Shown piece by piece: positions 10,245-60,781 of a DNA stretch of 64,000 nt. A program made the position numbers and the translations under genes. The notes below the pieces were generated by a model, which searched no databases, was not told the origin of the DNA, and saw nothing but the letters and a program-made list of their open reading frames with translations. Numbering within the stretch: position 1 is the stretch's first letter; each line of letters begins with the position of its first letter. Source of the DNA: a virus; the IMG/VR virus record IMGVR_UViG_3300020185_004330, positions 1 to 64,000 of that record; one strand, written 5' to 3'.

Positions 10245-11858
10245 ATGAGATTTAAGGATATGACAGAAAAAGATATAAAAGCTTTTTCTAAAATTTACAA
10301 AAACAAAAACTTGTCTTGGGACGAAAGAATGAAAAAGTTAATGAATTTAACTGGTAAATCTGAAAGAACAGTTAGGGTTTGGGCTTCTAAAAAGCTTAAT
10401 TTAAACGAAAAACAAGAGACGATTTCTGTAGAATATGAACAGGCAAAAAACAGAAAGTTTGACAAAAAGAAAAAAAAGTTTATAATAACATGGGCTCAGA
10501 ACAACACACCAGTACATAAAGAGTTTTTTGAAAACTTAACTGCATATGCTAAACATATAAGTGCAGACATACATGTTATAGCTGGGAGGTATAGAAACCC
10601 TACATCAATATGGTCTTCTGACCAAGAAGAAGAAGAAAAGTGGGACTCTAGAGTTCAAAATTATCTAGATGCCAACAGGCATAATATACACAAATACATG
10701 TCTATAATGTCTGACGTAAAAATTCAGCCAACAGCAGTAAACCCAATGACTGGTATGCATGCTTTGTCTGGGATTAACTCTTGTATTTTTGGCTCTCCTA
10801 AGTTGCAGATGGAAATGATACCAGTAATAGAAGGTGAAAAGTCTAAGATGATGCTAACCACGGGCTCTTGTACTAAAAAGAATTACACTGATTCTAAAGC
10901 AGGTAAAAAAGGTGAGTTTCATCACGTTATAGGTTTTACGATTGTAGAAATAGAAGACAATGAAACTTTTTATGTAAGACAAGTTTCTGCAGAAGATAGT
11001 GGTGACTTTTGTGATTTATATAAAGAAATTAAGTATAATAAAGAGTCTAAAAAAACAAAAATAAACAACATAAAAGAAATAGAGGCTTGTATATTGGGAG
11101 ACTTACACTGGGGTCATCATGATTCTAAAGTTATTGATTTGACTCATAAAATGTTGAAAAAGATAAAGCCTAAACATGTGCTTTTACATGATGTTTTTGA
11201 TGGGTATTCAATATCTCATCATGACATGAAAGACCCGTTTGCTCAATATGGAAAAGAAATAAATGGAAATAATGACCTAAAAAAAGAAGTGACAGAAATG
11301 TTAGATGGCTTATCTCCTTTTGAGGCTTATGAAAATGTAGTTATTGTAAGGAGTAATCATGATGACTTCCTAGATAGGTGGGTTAAAAATGAAGATTGGA
11401 AACGCCAGCCAACTCCTAAAAACTCTCCACTATACATGGAGTACTCAGGAATACTATTAAGGCAATATGCCGAAACACCAGATGACATCAAGGGAATAAT
11501 ACCATCAATAATAAATGATAGATTTCCAAAATTTAAAACATTAGGAAGAAGAGATTCTTACAAAGTTTTAGAATGGGAGCTAGGTCAACATGGAGATGTT
11601 GGTTCAAATGGTTCAAGGGGCTCTTTATTACAAATGAGAAAATTAAATACAAAAATAGTAGTAGGACATTACCATTCACCAGGAAGAAAGGATGGGGCTC
11701 TAGCTGTTGGAACCTCTACGCATGTTAGGGTAGGATATAACATGGGACCAAGTTCTTGGTTACAGTCTCACGTTATAATTCATAAAAATGGAAAAGCGCA
11801 GCATATTAATTTTTTCAAAAATAAAAATGGAATACTAAACTATACAATATCTAAATAA
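10245..11858 (+). CDS. Calcineurin-like metallophosphoesterase with HTH-like N-terminus
   Basis: ATG 10245 is preferred; an upstream TTG at 10215 would add only ten residues. The 537-residue protein starts with a short helix-turn-helix-like stretch (LTGKSERTVRVWASKKL, about 35-51). The C-terminal half has the metal-binding motifs of calcineurin-like phosphoesterases: GDLHWGHH (285-292), an Asn-His pair in RSNHDDFLDRW (about 368-378) and GHYHSPG (about 474-480). The layout and length recall the phage T5 A1 pre-early protein, linked to host DNA degradation, but this is a resemblance only. Substrate unknown: a DNA nuclease or a nucleotide phosphatase both fit. Confidence 0.75.
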   Translation: MRFKDMTEKDIKAFSKIYKNKNLSWDERMKKLMNLTGKSERTVRVWASKKLNLNEKQETISVEYEQAKNRKFDKKKKKFIITWAQNNTPVHKEFFENLTAYAKHISADIHVIAGRYRNPTSIWSSDQEEEEKWDSRVQNYLDANRHNIHKYMSIMSDVKIQPTAVNPMTGMHALSGINSCIFGSPKLQMEMIPVIEGEKSKMMLTTGSCTKKNYTDSKAGKKGEFHHVIGFTIVEIEDNETFYVRQVSAEDSGDFCDLYKEIKYNKESKKTKINNIKEIEACILGDLHWGHHDSKVIDLTHKMLKKIKPKHVLLHDVFDGYSISHHDMKDPFAQYGKEINGNNDLKKEVTEMLDGLSPFEAYENVVIVRSNHDDFLDRWVKNEDWKRQPTPKNSPLYMEYSGILLRQYAETPDDIKGIIPSIINDRFPKFKTLGRRDSYKVLEWELGQHGDVGSNGSRGSLLQMRKLNTKIVVGHYHSPGRKDGALAVGTSTHVRVGYNMGPSSWLQSHVIIHKNGKAQHINFFKNKNGILNYTISK

Positions 11859-14496: not shown

Positions 14497-15705
14497 ATGG
14501 AAACAGTTTCTCAAGAAATTTCGCAAGAAGAAGCATTAAAGCAAAGGGAAAAAGCAATTACAGGCTTAGTATCTAAATTAGAGAAAAGTGAAAATACAAT
14601 ATACATATATTGTCCTGCAATGAGCAGCCCTAGTGGAGGTATTTCTGTCTTGTTTCAGCATGCAAAAATACTAAAAGACGCTGGAAAAAGCGTTACTATT
14701 GTTTATGAACCACAACAAAACAATCAAGCATCATTAGAAGCCACCAAAAAAGCTAGACTAAAAGGTGCAAAAGAACCAGTAATTATTTTTGATAAGTTTA
14801 ACCCATCTTGGCTAGGAAGCCTAAAGGAAGATATAGGCATGAGATGTTTGGCAGAAGGGGAACTGACTTATTCTGACGGTACTACAGAAAAGTTTGATTC
14901 ACTCCTAATGAACCCAGAAGATATAATGATTATACCTGAAGGTTTTCCAAATATAATGGAGAATACAGCACAACTGCCTTGCAAAAGAATTGTAATGGCT
15001 CAAAGTTGGTATTATATTCTTTCTGGATTAAAGGTTGGTCAAAAATGGCAACACTTTGGTATTACAGATGTAATTTCTATATCTGATGGTATTACAGAGT
15101 TTTTAAATACAGTAATGCCAGGCCTTAAAGTTAAAAATTACAAACAAGCAATCGATAGAGATTTGTTTCAAGTTCCAGAGAAAGTTTCAGATAAGGCACC
15201 TATGATTTCATATATGCCAGGAAGAGGTCCTGAGTCTCAAATGAAAACAAATACTGTTATTAGAACTTTTTATGAATTTTATCCACATTACAGATGGGTT
15301 CGTTTTGCTCCACTACAAGGACTTTCTAAAGAAGATTTTGCAAGTCAATTAAAAACTTCTGCACTTGCACTTTATACAGATGAAGTTGCTGGGTTTGGAA
15401 CTCTACCTTTAGAGGCTATGGCTTGCGGCACTCATATCGTAGGTTGGACTCCATTTGGAAGTAAAGAGTACATAAACGAAGACAATGGTTTTTGGGCCGT
15501 TAACGGAGACGTATTTCAATTAGCAGAATTAATTGGAATGGCTTTAGATAGATATTTTTCTGGACTTTTGGATTCAGAAGAAGTTACAAAAGAATACGAA
15601 AAAACACTTTCAGAGTATACTAAAGAAAAAGAAGTAGAATCTGTTTTAAACATTTATAAAGAAATTAACAATGAAAGAATTGAAGAACTTAAAAACATTA
15701 AATAA
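14497..15705 (+). CDS. GT-B fold glycosyltransferase (family 4 type)
   Basis: The 402-residue protein has the N-terminal glycine-rich loop of GT-B enzymes (SPSGGISVLFQHAKIL, about 45-60). It also has the C-terminal GT4 donor-binding motif EVAGFGTLPLEAMACGTHIV (about 295-314), which contains the E-x7-E pair that holds the nucleotide sugar. No membrane segment is seen. The gene stands apart from the main cassette, behind its own terminator and candidate promoter, and overlaps the next glycosyltransferase by 35 bases. Donor and acceptor are unknown. Confidence 0.85.
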   Translation: METVSQEISQEEALKQREKAITGLVSKLEKSENTIYIYCPAMSSPSGGISVLFQHAKILKDAGKSVTIVYEPQQNNQASLEATKKARLKGAKEPVIIFDKFNPSWLGSLKEDIGMRCLAEGELTYSDGTTEKFDSLLMNPEDIMIIPEGFPNIMENTAQLPCKRIVMAQSWYYILSGLKVGQKWQHFGITDVISISDGITEFLNTVMPGLKVKNYKQAIDRDLFQVPEKVSDKAPMISYMPGRGPESQMKTNTVIRTFYEFYPHYRWVRFAPLQGLSKEDFASQLKTSALALYTDEVAGFGTLPLEAMACGTHIVGWTPFGSKEYINEDNGFWAVNGDVFQLAELIGMALDRYFSGLLDSEEVTKEYEKTLSEYTKEKEVESVLNIYKEINNERIEELKNIK

Positions 15706-16621
15706 TAAAAATTTATTAGTAGTCGTACCAATTAACGACTTTGAAGAAGAAACTCTAAACGAGTCACTTTACAGCCTGTCAAATCAAACAAATGAATCAG
15801 ATGTTTTATTTTTGGTATCTAATGACTGTGAAAAAGAATCATTAGAAAAGCTATCAGAAATTGCCTCTAAACCATATAAAAGAGTTTTTGAGTCAGACGA
15901 AGAAGGTAATCCAAAATCACAAATGGTTTCTTCTGAAAAGCAAATGAATTTTGCAATTGAAACCACAAAGTCTAAAGACTTTAATTCAATATTTAATGAT
16001 GCATTTAATATTGCTTTAAATAATGGATATAAATGGCTAAGCGTTATTGATAAGGATGATAGCGTTGAACAAAATTGGGTATATAATTTTGATAAATATT
16101 CTAAAGAAATGGATAATATATCAGTATTTTTCCCAATAGTTAGACAAGTTTCTGCTGGTAACATGACAGGACATCTAAATGAGGCTACTTGGCTAGAGGG
16201 TAGGTCAGAAGTTGCTGGTCAAGCTGATTTGCAAATGTTAATGTCTTGGAATTGTCTATCTCCAACAGGGTGTATGATTAATTTAGAAGATGTTAAAGAA
16301 TATAGTGAAGAACGAGATGGTATGTATTATCCATTTAAGGAAAACATGAACATAGCTTCTTCTTACGAATTCTTTTTAAGAATGATATATGAAGACTTAA
16401 AAACGTTTACAATTCCTAGATATGGATACCAAATGAGAATGGATGTTAATTCTTCTACATTTGACAGATTCTCGTCTAAAATACCTTCTAATATTACTAA
16501 AATAGAAAAAGATAAAGGTGGAATAACGGCACATGAAATTGGATTTTGGATGGAACAAGCCAAAAGTGAATATTTTATGTCTGAAGACAGGGACATAGAG
16601 TACGAACCGCAAGTCGCTTAA
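15671..16621 (+). CDS. GT-A fold glycosyltransferase-like protein
   Basis: The 316-residue protein begins within the 3' end of the GT4 gene. It has a GT2-like N-terminal strand (LLVVVPINDFEEETLNESLY) and a DxD-type motif, VIDKDDSVEQNW (about 125-136), preceded by FNIALNNGYKWL, typical of GT2 enzymes. Asp/Ser-rich inserts make the fold less certain than for the 1114 gene. The overlap with the GT4 gene suggests the two act on the same glycan. The stop codon adjoins the stem-loop at 16621-16648. Confidence 0.7.
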   Translation: MKELKNLKTLNNKNLLVVVPINDFEEETLNESLYSLSNQTNESDVLFLVSNDCEKESLEKLSEIASKPYKRVFESDEEGNPKSQMVSSEKQMNFAIETTKSKDFNSIFNDAFNIALNNGYKWLSVIDKDDSVEQNWVYNFDKYSKEMDNISVFFPIVRQVSAGNMTGHLNEATWLEGRSEVAGQADLQMLMSWNCLSPTGCMINLEDVKEYSEERDGMYYPFKENMNIASSYEFFLRMIYEDLKTFTIPRYGYQMRMDVNSSTFDRFSSKIPSNITKIEKDKGGITAHEIGFWMEQAKSEYFMSEDRDIEYEPQVA

Positions 16622-16690
16622 AAAAAGGCAACCCCTGCAAGGGTTGCCCTTGAATTTGCTCACAACATAGAGATGAAAAATTGTAAAGCA
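16621..16690 (-). ncRNA. Candidate minus-strand small RNA (about 70 nt)
   Basis: On the minus strand a TTTG -33 box, a 20-base spacer and a TATATTTG -7 box (16726 down to 16695) are followed about 50 bases later by a GC-rich hairpin. The hairpin is GGCAACCC/GGGTTGCC (16648-16627) with a six-T run (16626-16621). That is a complete promoter-terminator unit with no open frame between. The RNA 5' end near 16690 is inferred. On the + strand the hairpin has no T run, so it does not look like the terminator of the upstream glycosyltransferase gene. Confidence 0.5.
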
Positions 16691-16694
16691 TTTA

Positions 16695-16726
16695 CAAATA
16701 TAAGTAAATGTCCTAAACAAAACAAA
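16695..16726 (-). promoter_or_regulatory. Bacteroidota-type promoter on the minus strand, with overlapping inverted repeat
   Basis: Read on the minus strand: TTTG at 16726-16723, 20 bases, then TATATTTG at 16702-16695. This is the best full match to the Bacteroidota -33/-7 consensus in the window. A 7-bp inverted repeat, CATTTAC (16689-16695) and GTAAATG (16704-16710), brackets the -7 box and could be an operator. Confidence 0.55.
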
Positions 16727-16737
16727 TAAAATGAAAA

Positions 16738-17622
16738 ATGGCAGGACAAAATTTAAAAGCTTTAAGTGAATTAAAGTTTGATTCCATAGGAGAGGAGTTT
16801 ATTTATCTACATAACAAAATAAATAAACAAAACCCAGAATTCGAAGAAAAAAATAAACATAAAAAAGAGATAACTATTGAATATTTAAGAGAAGAATATT
16901 CTAGAATAGTAAACGAAGGAGAGGTTGAAGAAAAATATGAAAAAAACTCAGTTTATTGGACAGTCGAACAAGAGAGGGCTATAGCGGCGTTTATAGTAGA
17001 AAAAAATAATGAAAAAAAGGAAAAGATATTTAGAGATGACATATATAAGCCTCTAAAGAAGCTTGTTGAAAATATTATATTTACTTATAAACTTTTTCGT
17101 TCTGATGTTGAAATAAGAGAGTTACAAGAAGATTGTATGTCTTTTTTAATAACAAAAATGGACAGATATGACCCGTCAAAAGGAACTAGAGCTTTCGCTT
17201 TTTTTGGAACTATAGCAAAACATTATTTGATGGGGGAAAAAAAGATTTCTTACAAAAACATACAAAGCAATGTTAGTCTGGAGGGTTCTTCTGCTGAAAT
17301 TAACTTAGAAGAAGGGAATGAAGATAGACAAATGGATTTAGAGTCTGAAAAAGTAAATAATGTAGTTTTTAGAGAAGTTATAAAAAAATTAGAATTAGAA
17401 CTATTGAATCCTAAAGTTTTGCCTAATGACAAAAAGGTTATGGAGGCTATTATATTTATATTCAACAGACATGAAGTGATTAATATATATAACAAAAACT
17501 TATTATACCACCTCATTAAAGAAAGAACAGATTTACAAGCTAAAGAAATAACATATTCCTTAACAAGAATAAGAAGTATGTACAAAGAATTTAAAGAGAT
17601 GTTTTTAAAGACCTTAAATTAA
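16738..17622 (+). CDS. 55: T4 gp55-like late sigma factor
   Basis: The 294-residue protein contains a sigma region-2-like domain (about 98-170) with VENIIFTYKLF, ELQEDCMSFLITKMDRYDPS and GTRAFAFFGTIAKHYLM, the pattern by which gp55-type sigma factors bind core RNA polymerase and the -10 region. No sigma region 4 with a clear HTH is seen, as in T4 gp55, which uses only a -10 element. It is longer than T4 gp55 (185 residues), with an N-terminal charged extension. It stands immediately before the structural module, and its stop overlaps a terminator, so it is probably transcribed separately from the late genes it would switch on. Confidence 0.75.
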   Translation: MAGQNLKALSELKFDSIGEEFIYLHNKINKQNPEFEEKNKHKKEITIEYLREEYSRIVNEGEVEEKYEKNSVYWTVEQERAIAAFIVEKNNEKKEKIFRDDIYKPLKKLVENIIFTYKLFRSDVEIRELQEDCMSFLITKMDRYDPSKGTRAFAFFGTIAKHYLMGEKKISYKNIQSNVSLEGSSAEINLEEGNEDRQMDLESEKVNNVVFREVIKKLELELLNPKVLPNDKKVMEAIIFIFNRHEVINIYNKNLLYHLIKERTDLQAKEITYSLTRIRSMYKEFKEMFLKTLN

Positions 17623-17635: not shown

Positions 17636-17647
17636 GTCAAATATATT

Positions 17648-17659
17648 TATTTATAAATA
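17648..17659 (+). promoter_or_regulatory. Candidate late promoter box (TATTTATAAATA)
   Basis: TATTTATA (17648-17655) and an overlapping T4-late-type TATAAATA (17652-17659) lie just after the sigma gene terminator and 8 bases before ATG 17668, at the head of the structural module. Confidence 0.5.
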
Positions 17660-17667
17660 GTAATGTT

Positions 17668-21022: not shown

Positions 21023-21439
21023 ATGGGATGCATAAAGGTAGATGAAAAATTACAAAAATCAGAAGAACTTTCTAAGTTTATACTATTCTTATTTAAAGAA
21101 AATAGAGTTAAGATACCTAAGTTTAGTTTGTTTCAAATATTATTATCCAAAACTAGACCTGGTCTAGATAGCGACTCCATAAGTTCAGAAGTTATTTCAA
21201 AGTTTGAAAAAATAGGAATTCCATCTGGACCACTTGAAAATGGTACTCCAAACGTCATGGAAGAATACACTAAGGTTATGACAGATGAAATAATAGATGC
21301 TATACAAACAGATATGAGAGTTGACGTTGCGATAGATGTTGGAATGACTGTTTTAGGAACTGGAGCAAATGCAGGTGGACCAGTTGTTACTACTGGCTCC
21401 AATATTGCTCCTCATAGTGGAAGCGGTTTAGCTACTTAA
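21023..21439 (+). CDS. Hypothetical virion-module protein
   Basis: This is a 138-residue protein with a helical N-terminal half (SKFILFLFKENRVKI) and a Gly/Thr/Ala-rich C-terminal tail after MTVLGTGANAGG. I recognise no family. The position between a large structural gene and the gp5-like spike gene suggests a baseplate or tail role. The start follows a TATTTATA box. Confidence 0.7.
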   Translation: MGCIKVDEKLQKSEELSKFILFLFKENRVKIPKFSLFQILLSKTRPGLDSDSISSEVISKFEKIGIPSGPLENGTPNVMEEYTKVMTDEIIDAIQTDMRVDVAIDVGMTVLGTGANAGGPVVTTGSNIAPHSGSGLAT

Positions 21440-24546: not shown

Positions 24547-24933
24547 TTATACAGATTCTCTGGCTATATTTAATGTTACTGAATCAGTTTTAAATGATTT
24601 GTCTATTCTAAACGTAATATCTATAGAAAGGAAGTTGTTTTCTTCTTCTTCAAAAAACTGTATGGCAGTTATAGATATTTGTGGTATAAATTCTGATACT
24701 TTTTTTTCTATGTCTTTTTTTAGTTCAGATTTTATAAAACCATCCAAAGGTTCCATTATGTAATCATATATCGGAGAGTAAAGAGAGCTTCTCATAGGCC
24801 TTTGACCTCTTCTAGTTGTTAATAGAGATATTAAATCAGCCTTTAAAGCATTTGCTGTGGTTTTAGTCGTTTCAAAAACGCCACCTGTAACTGTTTCTTT
24901 AAAGGGAAAATCGATATTTATACCGTTAGCCAT
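24547..24933 (-). CDS. 25: Baseplate wedge protein gp25-like
   Basis: I choose ATG 24933 (MANGINIDFPF) because the longer frame would start upstream of a TATTTATA box. The resulting 128 residues match T4 gp25 (132). Conserved gp25/GpW features seen are the N-terminal IDFPF strand, ALKADLISLLTTRRGQRPMR (family LLT..GERvM type), SLYSPIYDYIMEP and the C-terminal beta strands. gp25 nucleates sheath assembly at the baseplate in known myoviruses. It is followed by gp6. Confidence 0.9.
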   Translation of the reverse strand: MANGINIDFPFKETVTGGVFETTKTTANALKADLISLLTTRRGQRPMRSSLYSPIYDYIMEPLDGFIKSELKKDIEKKVSEFIPQISITAIQFFEEEENNFLSIDITFRIDKSFKTDSVTLNIARESV

Positions 24934-24948
24934 TATTATTCTTTTTTT

Positions 24949-24956
24949 TATAAATA
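24949..24956 (-). promoter_or_regulatory. TATTTATA box upstream of gp25-like gene (minus strand)
   Basis: On the minus strand TATTTATA lies 15 bases before ATG 24933. On the plus strand the same bases read TATAAATA, about 100 bases before ATG 25057, so either direction is possible. Confidence 0.4.
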
Positions 24957-25056
24957 GTAAATGCAAAAAAAATAAAGACTTTTTTCGGGCACTATTTACA
25001 TATATACAATAAATATTATATAATATATATTATTTCAAATAAAAATAAACTATAAA

Positions 25057-35732: not shown

Positions 35733-35776
35733 TAATCTATCGTATTATTAAAAAAATAAATAAAATATAAAATAAA

Positions 35777-35805
35777 AGAGGGCTAGAAAACTAGCCCTCT
35801 CTCTT
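35777..35805. terminator. Bidirectional terminator between convergent genes
   Basis: A perfect 10-bp stem AGAGGGCTAG (35777-35786)/CTAGCCCTCT (35791-35800) with loop AAAA. The + strand reads on into CTCTTTT. The minus strand reads into TTTTATTTTATATTTT, so it can stop transcripts from both the AlaRS-like gene and the fibre gene. Confidence 0.85.
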
Positions 35806-40794: not shown

Positions 40795-40807
40795 GTTTGA
40801 CTTTTAT

Positions 40808-40828
40808 AATAAATAGTAATTATTTATA
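40808..40828 (-). promoter_or_regulatory. Late-promoter-like boxes upstream of 40794
   Basis: On the minus strand a T4-late-type TATAAATA (40828-40821) is followed by TATTTATT (40815-40808). The first lies 26 bases before the ATG. Confidence 0.45.
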
Positions 40829-40856
40829 ATATAATAGAAAATGATATAAGATTATT

Positions 40857-60160: not shown

Positions 60161-60781
60161 CTACCACCACTTACCTTGGCCGCTTAAGCCTAACATTTTT
60201 GCATATCTAGGAAGTCTACAAGACCAATACCCAGGCGTAGTTTTATCATTTTTTTCTGTACAATTATGTCTATCAGAAAATCTTTTTCTTGCGTCAGGGT
60301 CTCTAAGTTTAACTGCTAACTTACCTCCACCATCTTTTGCTCCAAAAGAAACTTTTACAACCTTACCAGTTTTAGGGTTTTTTACAAATACATAAAACTT
60401 TTTACTCCCCCCTCTTTTGGGCTTATTTAATTTTACCTTTTTGCCTTGGTATGTAGCTTCATTTAAATTGTAATCTTGATTCTCAAATGGCAAATCCAAA
60501 GGAACTAACTCGCCCTTATATTCTGCATATGACCCAGCATCACTTTTAATAATTTCCTCATCACATTCACAAAGTACAATAAAGTCTTTACTGTATAATG
60601 ACCTAACCTCCTTTATTAAATCTAGATGTTTACTTGATGCGTATCTATATATTGAGTTATGAACACTTATGTTATTGTCTATGTGATATTTTAAGTCATC
60701 ACTTATATTGGATTTAGACTCTTTAAGAATCATTATTTCCTTAAGTTCAGTTTCTAATATTTCTGATATAAACTTTCTCAT
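60161..60781 (-). CDS. DUF5872-like protein
   Basis: The 206 residues begin with a helical 80-residue N-terminus (MRKFISEILETELKEIMILK). The C-terminal domain runs from LNEATYQGKKVKLNKPKRGG through KKFYVFVKNPKTGKVVKVSF and KLRDPDARKRFSDRHNC to TTPGYWSCRLPRYA. This resembles the small DNA-phage domain DUF5872 (KLNKP..., Y-V-x-NPKTGKVVKV, R-HNC, YWSC), with conserved Cys and His that could bind zinc. LNE-A just before the domain matches the L-x-E/A site cut by T4-type prohead proteases. This is the first gene of its minus-strand unit. Confidence 0.7.
   Translation of the reverse strand: MRKFISEILETELKEIMILKESKSNISDDLKYHIDNNISVHNSIYRYASSKHLDLIKEVRSLYSKDFIVLCECDEEIIKSDAGSYAEYKGELVPLDLPFENQDYNLNEATYQGKKVKLNKPKRGGSKKFYVFVKNPKTGKVVKVSFGAKDGGGKLAVKLRDPDARKRFSDRHNCTEKNDKTTPGYWSCRLPRYAKMLGLSGQGKWW

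Follow-up and report, generated by a model that had tools for sequence, protein, structure and literature searches.

A predicted 71-nt small RNA gene on the minus strand beside a gp55-like sigma gene of a virus that appears to infect Bacteroidota-type bacteria

Small antisense transcripts occur in the regulatory regions of phages, including the sar RNA of P22 and other phage antisense RNAs (PMC12197685). The closest in layout to the locus described here is the OOP RNA of phage lambda (pO-oop-tO), a short phage RNA with its own promoter and terminator, lying opposite to the neighbouring genes and beside a phage regulator gene (PMC5869508, PMC12197685). OOP RNA and the cII coding region share an overlap of 52 bases. 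P22 is a temperate phage, and its sar RNA acts on the antirepressor gene. A 2025 review of phage-derived sRNAs does not mention phages of Bacteroidota or Flavobacterium in the text sampled, and literature searches returned no sRNA reported from a Bacteroidota or Flavobacterium phage.

The locus under study lies in a window of 64,000 nt, the whole stretch of DNA analysed, which comes from an IMG/VR virus record of 88 kb. Here a glycosyltransferase-2-like and a sigma-like gene are separated by 116 nt; this stretch contains a promoter-terminator unit (Table 1), and we consider it probable that this spacer carries a minus-strand small RNA gene for a 71-nt non-coding RNA. In contrast to OOP, the unit overlaps only the stop codon of the glycosyltransferase gene. 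The two RNAs have no sequence relationship, host phylum and polymerase type differ, and the 71-nt RNA is predicted from sequence. Membership of the OOP family was rejected, as there is neither homology nor antisense overlap with a cII-like coding region. The likeness to P22 sar as a small antisense transcript in a phage regulatory region goes no further either, since no antirepressor gene or lysogeny module was identified here. The record has no close DNA relatives among named phages, and no relative was found in GTDB genomes. Its protein relatives are found in Flavobacterium and Maribacter phages, among others, and the virus appears to infect Bacteroidota-type bacteria. Bacteroidota-type boxes TATATTTG, as in host-type promoters, stand 18-26 nt 5' of three phage genes in the record. 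The window also encodes a T5 A1-like DNA transfer protein (10245-11858; phrog_1745, E 2.9e-152), with a baseplate wedge gene in the same genome (22660-24528).

Table 1. Features of the spacer and its two flanking genes (window positions).
Feature	Position	Strand	Remarks
Glycosyltransferase family 2-like gene, upstream of spacer	15671-16621	+	Pfam PF00535, E 4.7e-4, below curated cut-off
Run of seven T after hairpin	16620-16626	-	two T overlap the stop codon TAA of the upstream gene (16619-16621)
Predicted 71-nt small RNA	16620-16690	-	spans predicted +1 to the last T of the run; covariance model
Terminator hairpin	16624-16651	-	12 bp in minus-strand RNA; 8-9 bp on plus strand
5' stem-loop	16657-16690	-	covariation and alifold, minus only; first paired base is the predicted +1
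Inverted repeat CATTTAC-N8-GTAAATG around -7 box	16689-16710		possible operator or stem-loop; spacing varies 8-10 nt across lineages
-7 element TATATTTG	16695-16702	-	exact match; Bacteroidota sigma-A consensus TAnnTTTG; octamer identical in L001, L005, L008
-33 element TTTG	16723-16726	-	exact match; kept in L001, L005, L008; lost in L003
Sigma-like (gp55-like) gene, downstream of spacer	16738-17622	+	294 aa; structure match, weak sequence matches

The downstream gene had been called gp55-like, a description which is upheld by structure. Its protein model, of moderate confidence (mean pLDDT 74.5, pTM 0.38), aligns with T4 gp55 (7d7c chain F) over 116 residues (Z 10.8, rmsd 4.3) and also matches many sigma region 2 structures. 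Matches in sequence are weak: a profile match to a sigma factor reaches E 0.011, phrog_254 (late promoter transcriptional regulator) is matched by 2 of 10 members with a best E of 0.36, and relatives among named phages, Flavobacterium phages immuto and others, are only 27-34% identical. Judged from the model, the gene is sigma-like, with a region 2 fold resembling gp55. An out-of-frame ATG lies 7 nt before the sigma start (ATGAAAAATGG, window 16731-16740), a possible translational decoy, and is kept as ATGAAAAATG or similar in L001, L003, L005 and L008.

Five lineages whose spacer is of similar size came from four IMG/VR searches; their sigma protein is 92% (L001/L002), 84% (L003/L004), 72% (L005-L007), 71% (L008) and about 52% (L009) identical. 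Few lineages and fragmentary contigs underlie the comparison. The original prediction placed TTTG-N20-TATATTTG on the minus strand next to the sigma start. This is borne out exactly: positions 16726-16695 are an exact match to the Bacteroidota sigma-A promoter, and 11 nt separate the end of the -33 box from the sigma ATG (16738). The strict pattern TTTG-N18-21-TAnnTTTG occurs six times in the 88-kb record, the match in the spacer being the only intergenic one. A promoter and terminator within 150 nt of each other were found in 0 of 80 dinucleotide-shuffled strands. Shuffling of single spacers (window, L001, L005, L008) gave p 0.004-0.013 per spacer for a strict promoter match and p <=0.001 for its TATATTTG form, values which, like those for the fold below, are guides and not strict tests, since motif and fold tests were chosen after the sequences were seen. 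Relatives at 92, 72 and 71% sigma identity retain the promoter, its boxes 19-20 nt apart (TTTG-N20-TATATTTG in L001 and L008, TTTG-N19-TATATTTG in L005). L009 has TTG-N21-TATCTTTG, a weaker version found as a loose match with p 0.076 in the shuffled spacer, and L003 has none.

In Flavobacterium psychrophilum the TAnnTTTG box was mapped at -12 to -5 (PMC9723704). Placing the box likewise puts +1 at 16690 and gives an RNA of 71 nt. This stretch is without a notable reading frame, its sole ATG opening a frame of 2 codons, in agreement with the claim that no protein is encoded. The -7 box does lie inside an inverted repeat, the arms of which (CATTTAC/GTAAATG) are retained in L001, L003 and L008 and only partly in L005. 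The proposal that this repeat is an operator is weakened by the distance between its halves, which is 8, 10, 8 and 9 nt by lineage. A second perfect dyad, TTGTAAA-N3-TTTACAA (16681-16697), overlaps the first. Near +1 the minus strand also has a MotA-like AATGCTTTA; this was discounted, since it is not retained in L003, L005 or L008.

The expected GC-rich hairpin, GGGCAACCCTTGCAGGGGTTGCC, is present and is followed on the minus strand by a T run, which counts seven and not six. The tail on the plus strand, CTTGAATTTG, has no T run, and the claim of a T run in the minus direction only is true for the window genome, though a lax scan still lists the plus side. Strong hairpins (stem >=8, >=6 G-C pairs, T tail) number two in 88 kb. 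The other, at 35774-35803 of the window, lies between convergent genes, has T-rich tails on both sides and is a bidirectional terminator.

In the window, L001, L005 and L008, the minus RNA taken from the predicted +1 forms two elements when folded, a 5' stem-loop and the terminator. In a sequence-only alignment, 9 of 18 pairs are changed on both sides, and the 5' stem accounts for four of these; none of 500 shuffles was as good, and slid partners gave at most 2 pairs. The 5' domain alone reaches an alifold energy of -3.15 kcal/mol on the minus strand (0 of 1000 column shuffles) versus 0.00 on the plus strand. This support comes from three independent lineages only, the window and L001 being close to each other, and with L001 left out the signal of the minus 5' stem weakens to 0.013 of shuffles. 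Wobble cells, which are not all independent, number eight; on the minus strand each is G-U and A-C does not occur, as selection on the minus RNA would predict. The minus strand folds more stably than the plus strand in all six sequences, including L003 and L009; for the 5' stem, single sequences yield modest z-scores (-0.8 to -1.9). Even with a further 12 bases upstream taken into the fold, the stem begins exactly at the predicted +1 in the window, L001 and L005, and extends upstream in L008. The loop carries CAUCUC (16675-16670) with an unpaired probability of about 1. Its core UCRUCU is unpaired in the window, L001, L005 and L008 and has drifted across lineages (CAUCUC, CAUCUA, CGUCUC).

Promoter, stem-loop and terminator are thus conserved together in three of the four comparable lineages, and L003, at 84% sigma identity, keeps the hairpin only, having neither promoter nor 5' stem (z +1.6). 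This joint loss, one event only, is the strongest single argument that the predicted promoter and stem form one gene. L003 nevertheless retains the CGTCTC core and the dyad arms, so that part of the conservation has another cause or reflects mere descent. The hairpin differs in L009 and has its seven T on the minus side alone. Searched with a covariance model built on 4 sequences, each genome of the clade has a single strong copy, while L003/L004 have a weak one and L009 has none. A search for further homologues by DNA pattern in IMG/VR gave 35 stretches, with strong model matches only in already known contigs.

An sRNA gene is the best reading of the spacer because the promoter is kept, a covarying stem-loop found on the minus strand only starts from +1, and promoter and stem are lost together in L003. 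Of the minus-strand regulatory RNA of about 70 nt originally proposed, the RNA gene as such is supported by the relatives (the window with L001, L005-L007, L008), while the hairpin as such is no mark of the RNA. As it also occurs in relatives that lack the promoter, often with T runs both ways, the hairpin is probably the older element, a boundary terminator that arose once the glycosyltransferase and sigma genes had been uncoupled and that the RNA gene came to use. Transcription by host RNA polymerase carrying the primary Bacteroidota sigma factor would begin at about 16690 and end at the hairpin. The resulting 71-nt RNA would consist of two stem-loops, the 5' one presenting an unpaired UCRUCU loop and the other being the terminator. 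From the type of promoter, expression by the host sigma-A holoenzyme is predicted, and we infer transcription by host polymerase early in infection. Exposure of the loop and its partial conservation suggest that the RNA may act through base pairing from the 5' loop.

As target, a phage or host message acted on in trans is slightly more likely than the read-through leader of the sigma gene, since the loop core stays similar, which an antisense RNA would not need. The search for a target did not return a firm one: within the phage genome, shuffled loops pair as well as the loop does at its best site. A cross-lineage ranking favoured the gene at 21023 (138 aa), which 2 of 400 permuted loops equalled. 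At the start of this gene, 12 bases pair in the window and 14 in L001, a pairing not retained in L005 or L008. This gene is a lead only, as the paired site is common to the window and L001 alone and permutation breaks the U run.

The RNA might instead act in cis, either by pairing with the read-through from the glycosyltransferase to the sigma gene or by interference of its transcription with it, and so delay the late sigma. The RNA is perfectly complementary to the spacer, and the -33/-7 region overlaps the presumed sigma leader. Moreover, the glycosyltransferase and sigma genes overlap or abut in L012, L013 and most other distant relatives and are therefore probably co-transcribed, the weak plus-side terminator in the window and L001 makes read-through plausible, and lambda OOP RNA acts from a similar layout (PMC5869508). 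However, neither the conserved loop core nor the covarying 5' stem is necessary for pairing in cis, coding sequence is overlapped at the stop codon only, and L003 does without the RNA. We regard action in cis as a serious rival and as possible, at well below even likelihood, which is to be read as a share within the sRNA-gene reading and overlaps with the likelihood of the latter; the same holds for the decoy discussed below. A timing switch, by which the RNA or the overlapping promoter would hold back the late sigma while host sigma-A is active until polymerase takeover releases it, is doubtful.

The hairpin could also be no more than a boundary terminator working in both directions, with the conserved spacer serving the sigma gene as plus-strand promoter and leader and the match to a minus promoter incidental. 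Indeed, the hairpin is found at the same gene boundary in the promoterless L003, L010 and L011, which removes it as a mark of the RNA. The more distant L010, L011 and L014 have a hairpin only, with the sigma start within about 20 nt, and the spacer of L010 and L011 leaves no room for a minus promoter. Plus-side T runs accompany the hairpin at this boundary in L008, L010 and L011. An A-rich leader would explain CAAA (minus TTTG) near the start codon, and the plus-strand TATAAGTA in the spacer resembles the T4 late box TATAAATA. Yet TATAAGTA is not enriched in the genome, and the plus-strand GAGACG-TATAA spacing of 22-26 nt is unlike a rigid promoter. The window, L001 and L009 have lost the plus-side T run and kept the minus one. 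Finally, a boundary terminator predicts neither the covarying 5' stem-loop on the minus strand only, nor the G-U asymmetry, nor the joint loss in L003, and we consider this explanation unlikely. Action as a decoy that binds RNA polymerase, a sigma factor or an RNA-binding protein, and not as a base-pairing regulator, would suit the structured head of the RNA, its short exposed motif, the adjoining sigma gene and the want of a convincing pairing target, and is improbable given that the RNA has no typical 6S RNA feature and no Rfam match above threshold.

The sRNA gene proposed here combines a host-type promoter, an intrinsic terminator (12 bp and seven T) and conserved structure on the transcribed strand, as expected of a phage-encoded small RNA with a promoter and terminator of its own. 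No Rfam family scores at or above its gathering threshold. Weak matches to sbrA (RF01489, 22.3 bits) and isrD (RF01388, 21.1 bits) on the same strand and position are far below the gathering scores (45 and 37) and probably reflect a generic shape of stem and terminator. We class the predicted 71-nt RNA as a new and narrow family within a known kind of sRNA. This compact unit with covariation, next to a gp55-like sigma gene, provides a concrete locus for testing RNA control of a late-gene switch. It further shows that raw virus contigs suffice for calling sRNA genes when a Bacteroidota promoter, strand-specific covariation and correlated loss are combined.

Other features of the record were observed. 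The motif ACTATTTA is enriched just 5' of gene starts on either strand (7 versus 0.47 expected; window 17644-17660, 24910-24960, 40800-40830 and 60750-60781, record 71840 and 78010) and may be a promoter or operator motif specific to the phage. Near-identical upstream sequences and a regular 344-nt spacing of four ORFs (107-108 aa; record 69957-71315, L053 5957-7315) point to recent tandem duplication. A group I intron (Rfam RF00028, 80.8 bits, L053 7542-7778) apparently interrupts the anticodon arm of a tRNA-like gene at record 71511-71823 (L053 7511-7823). The two halves of this gene look like those of a CAT anticodon, and tRNA-Arg(tct) lies just upstream. A tRNA-Ala(tgc) gene is located on the minus strand at record 76902-76976 (L053 12902-12976).
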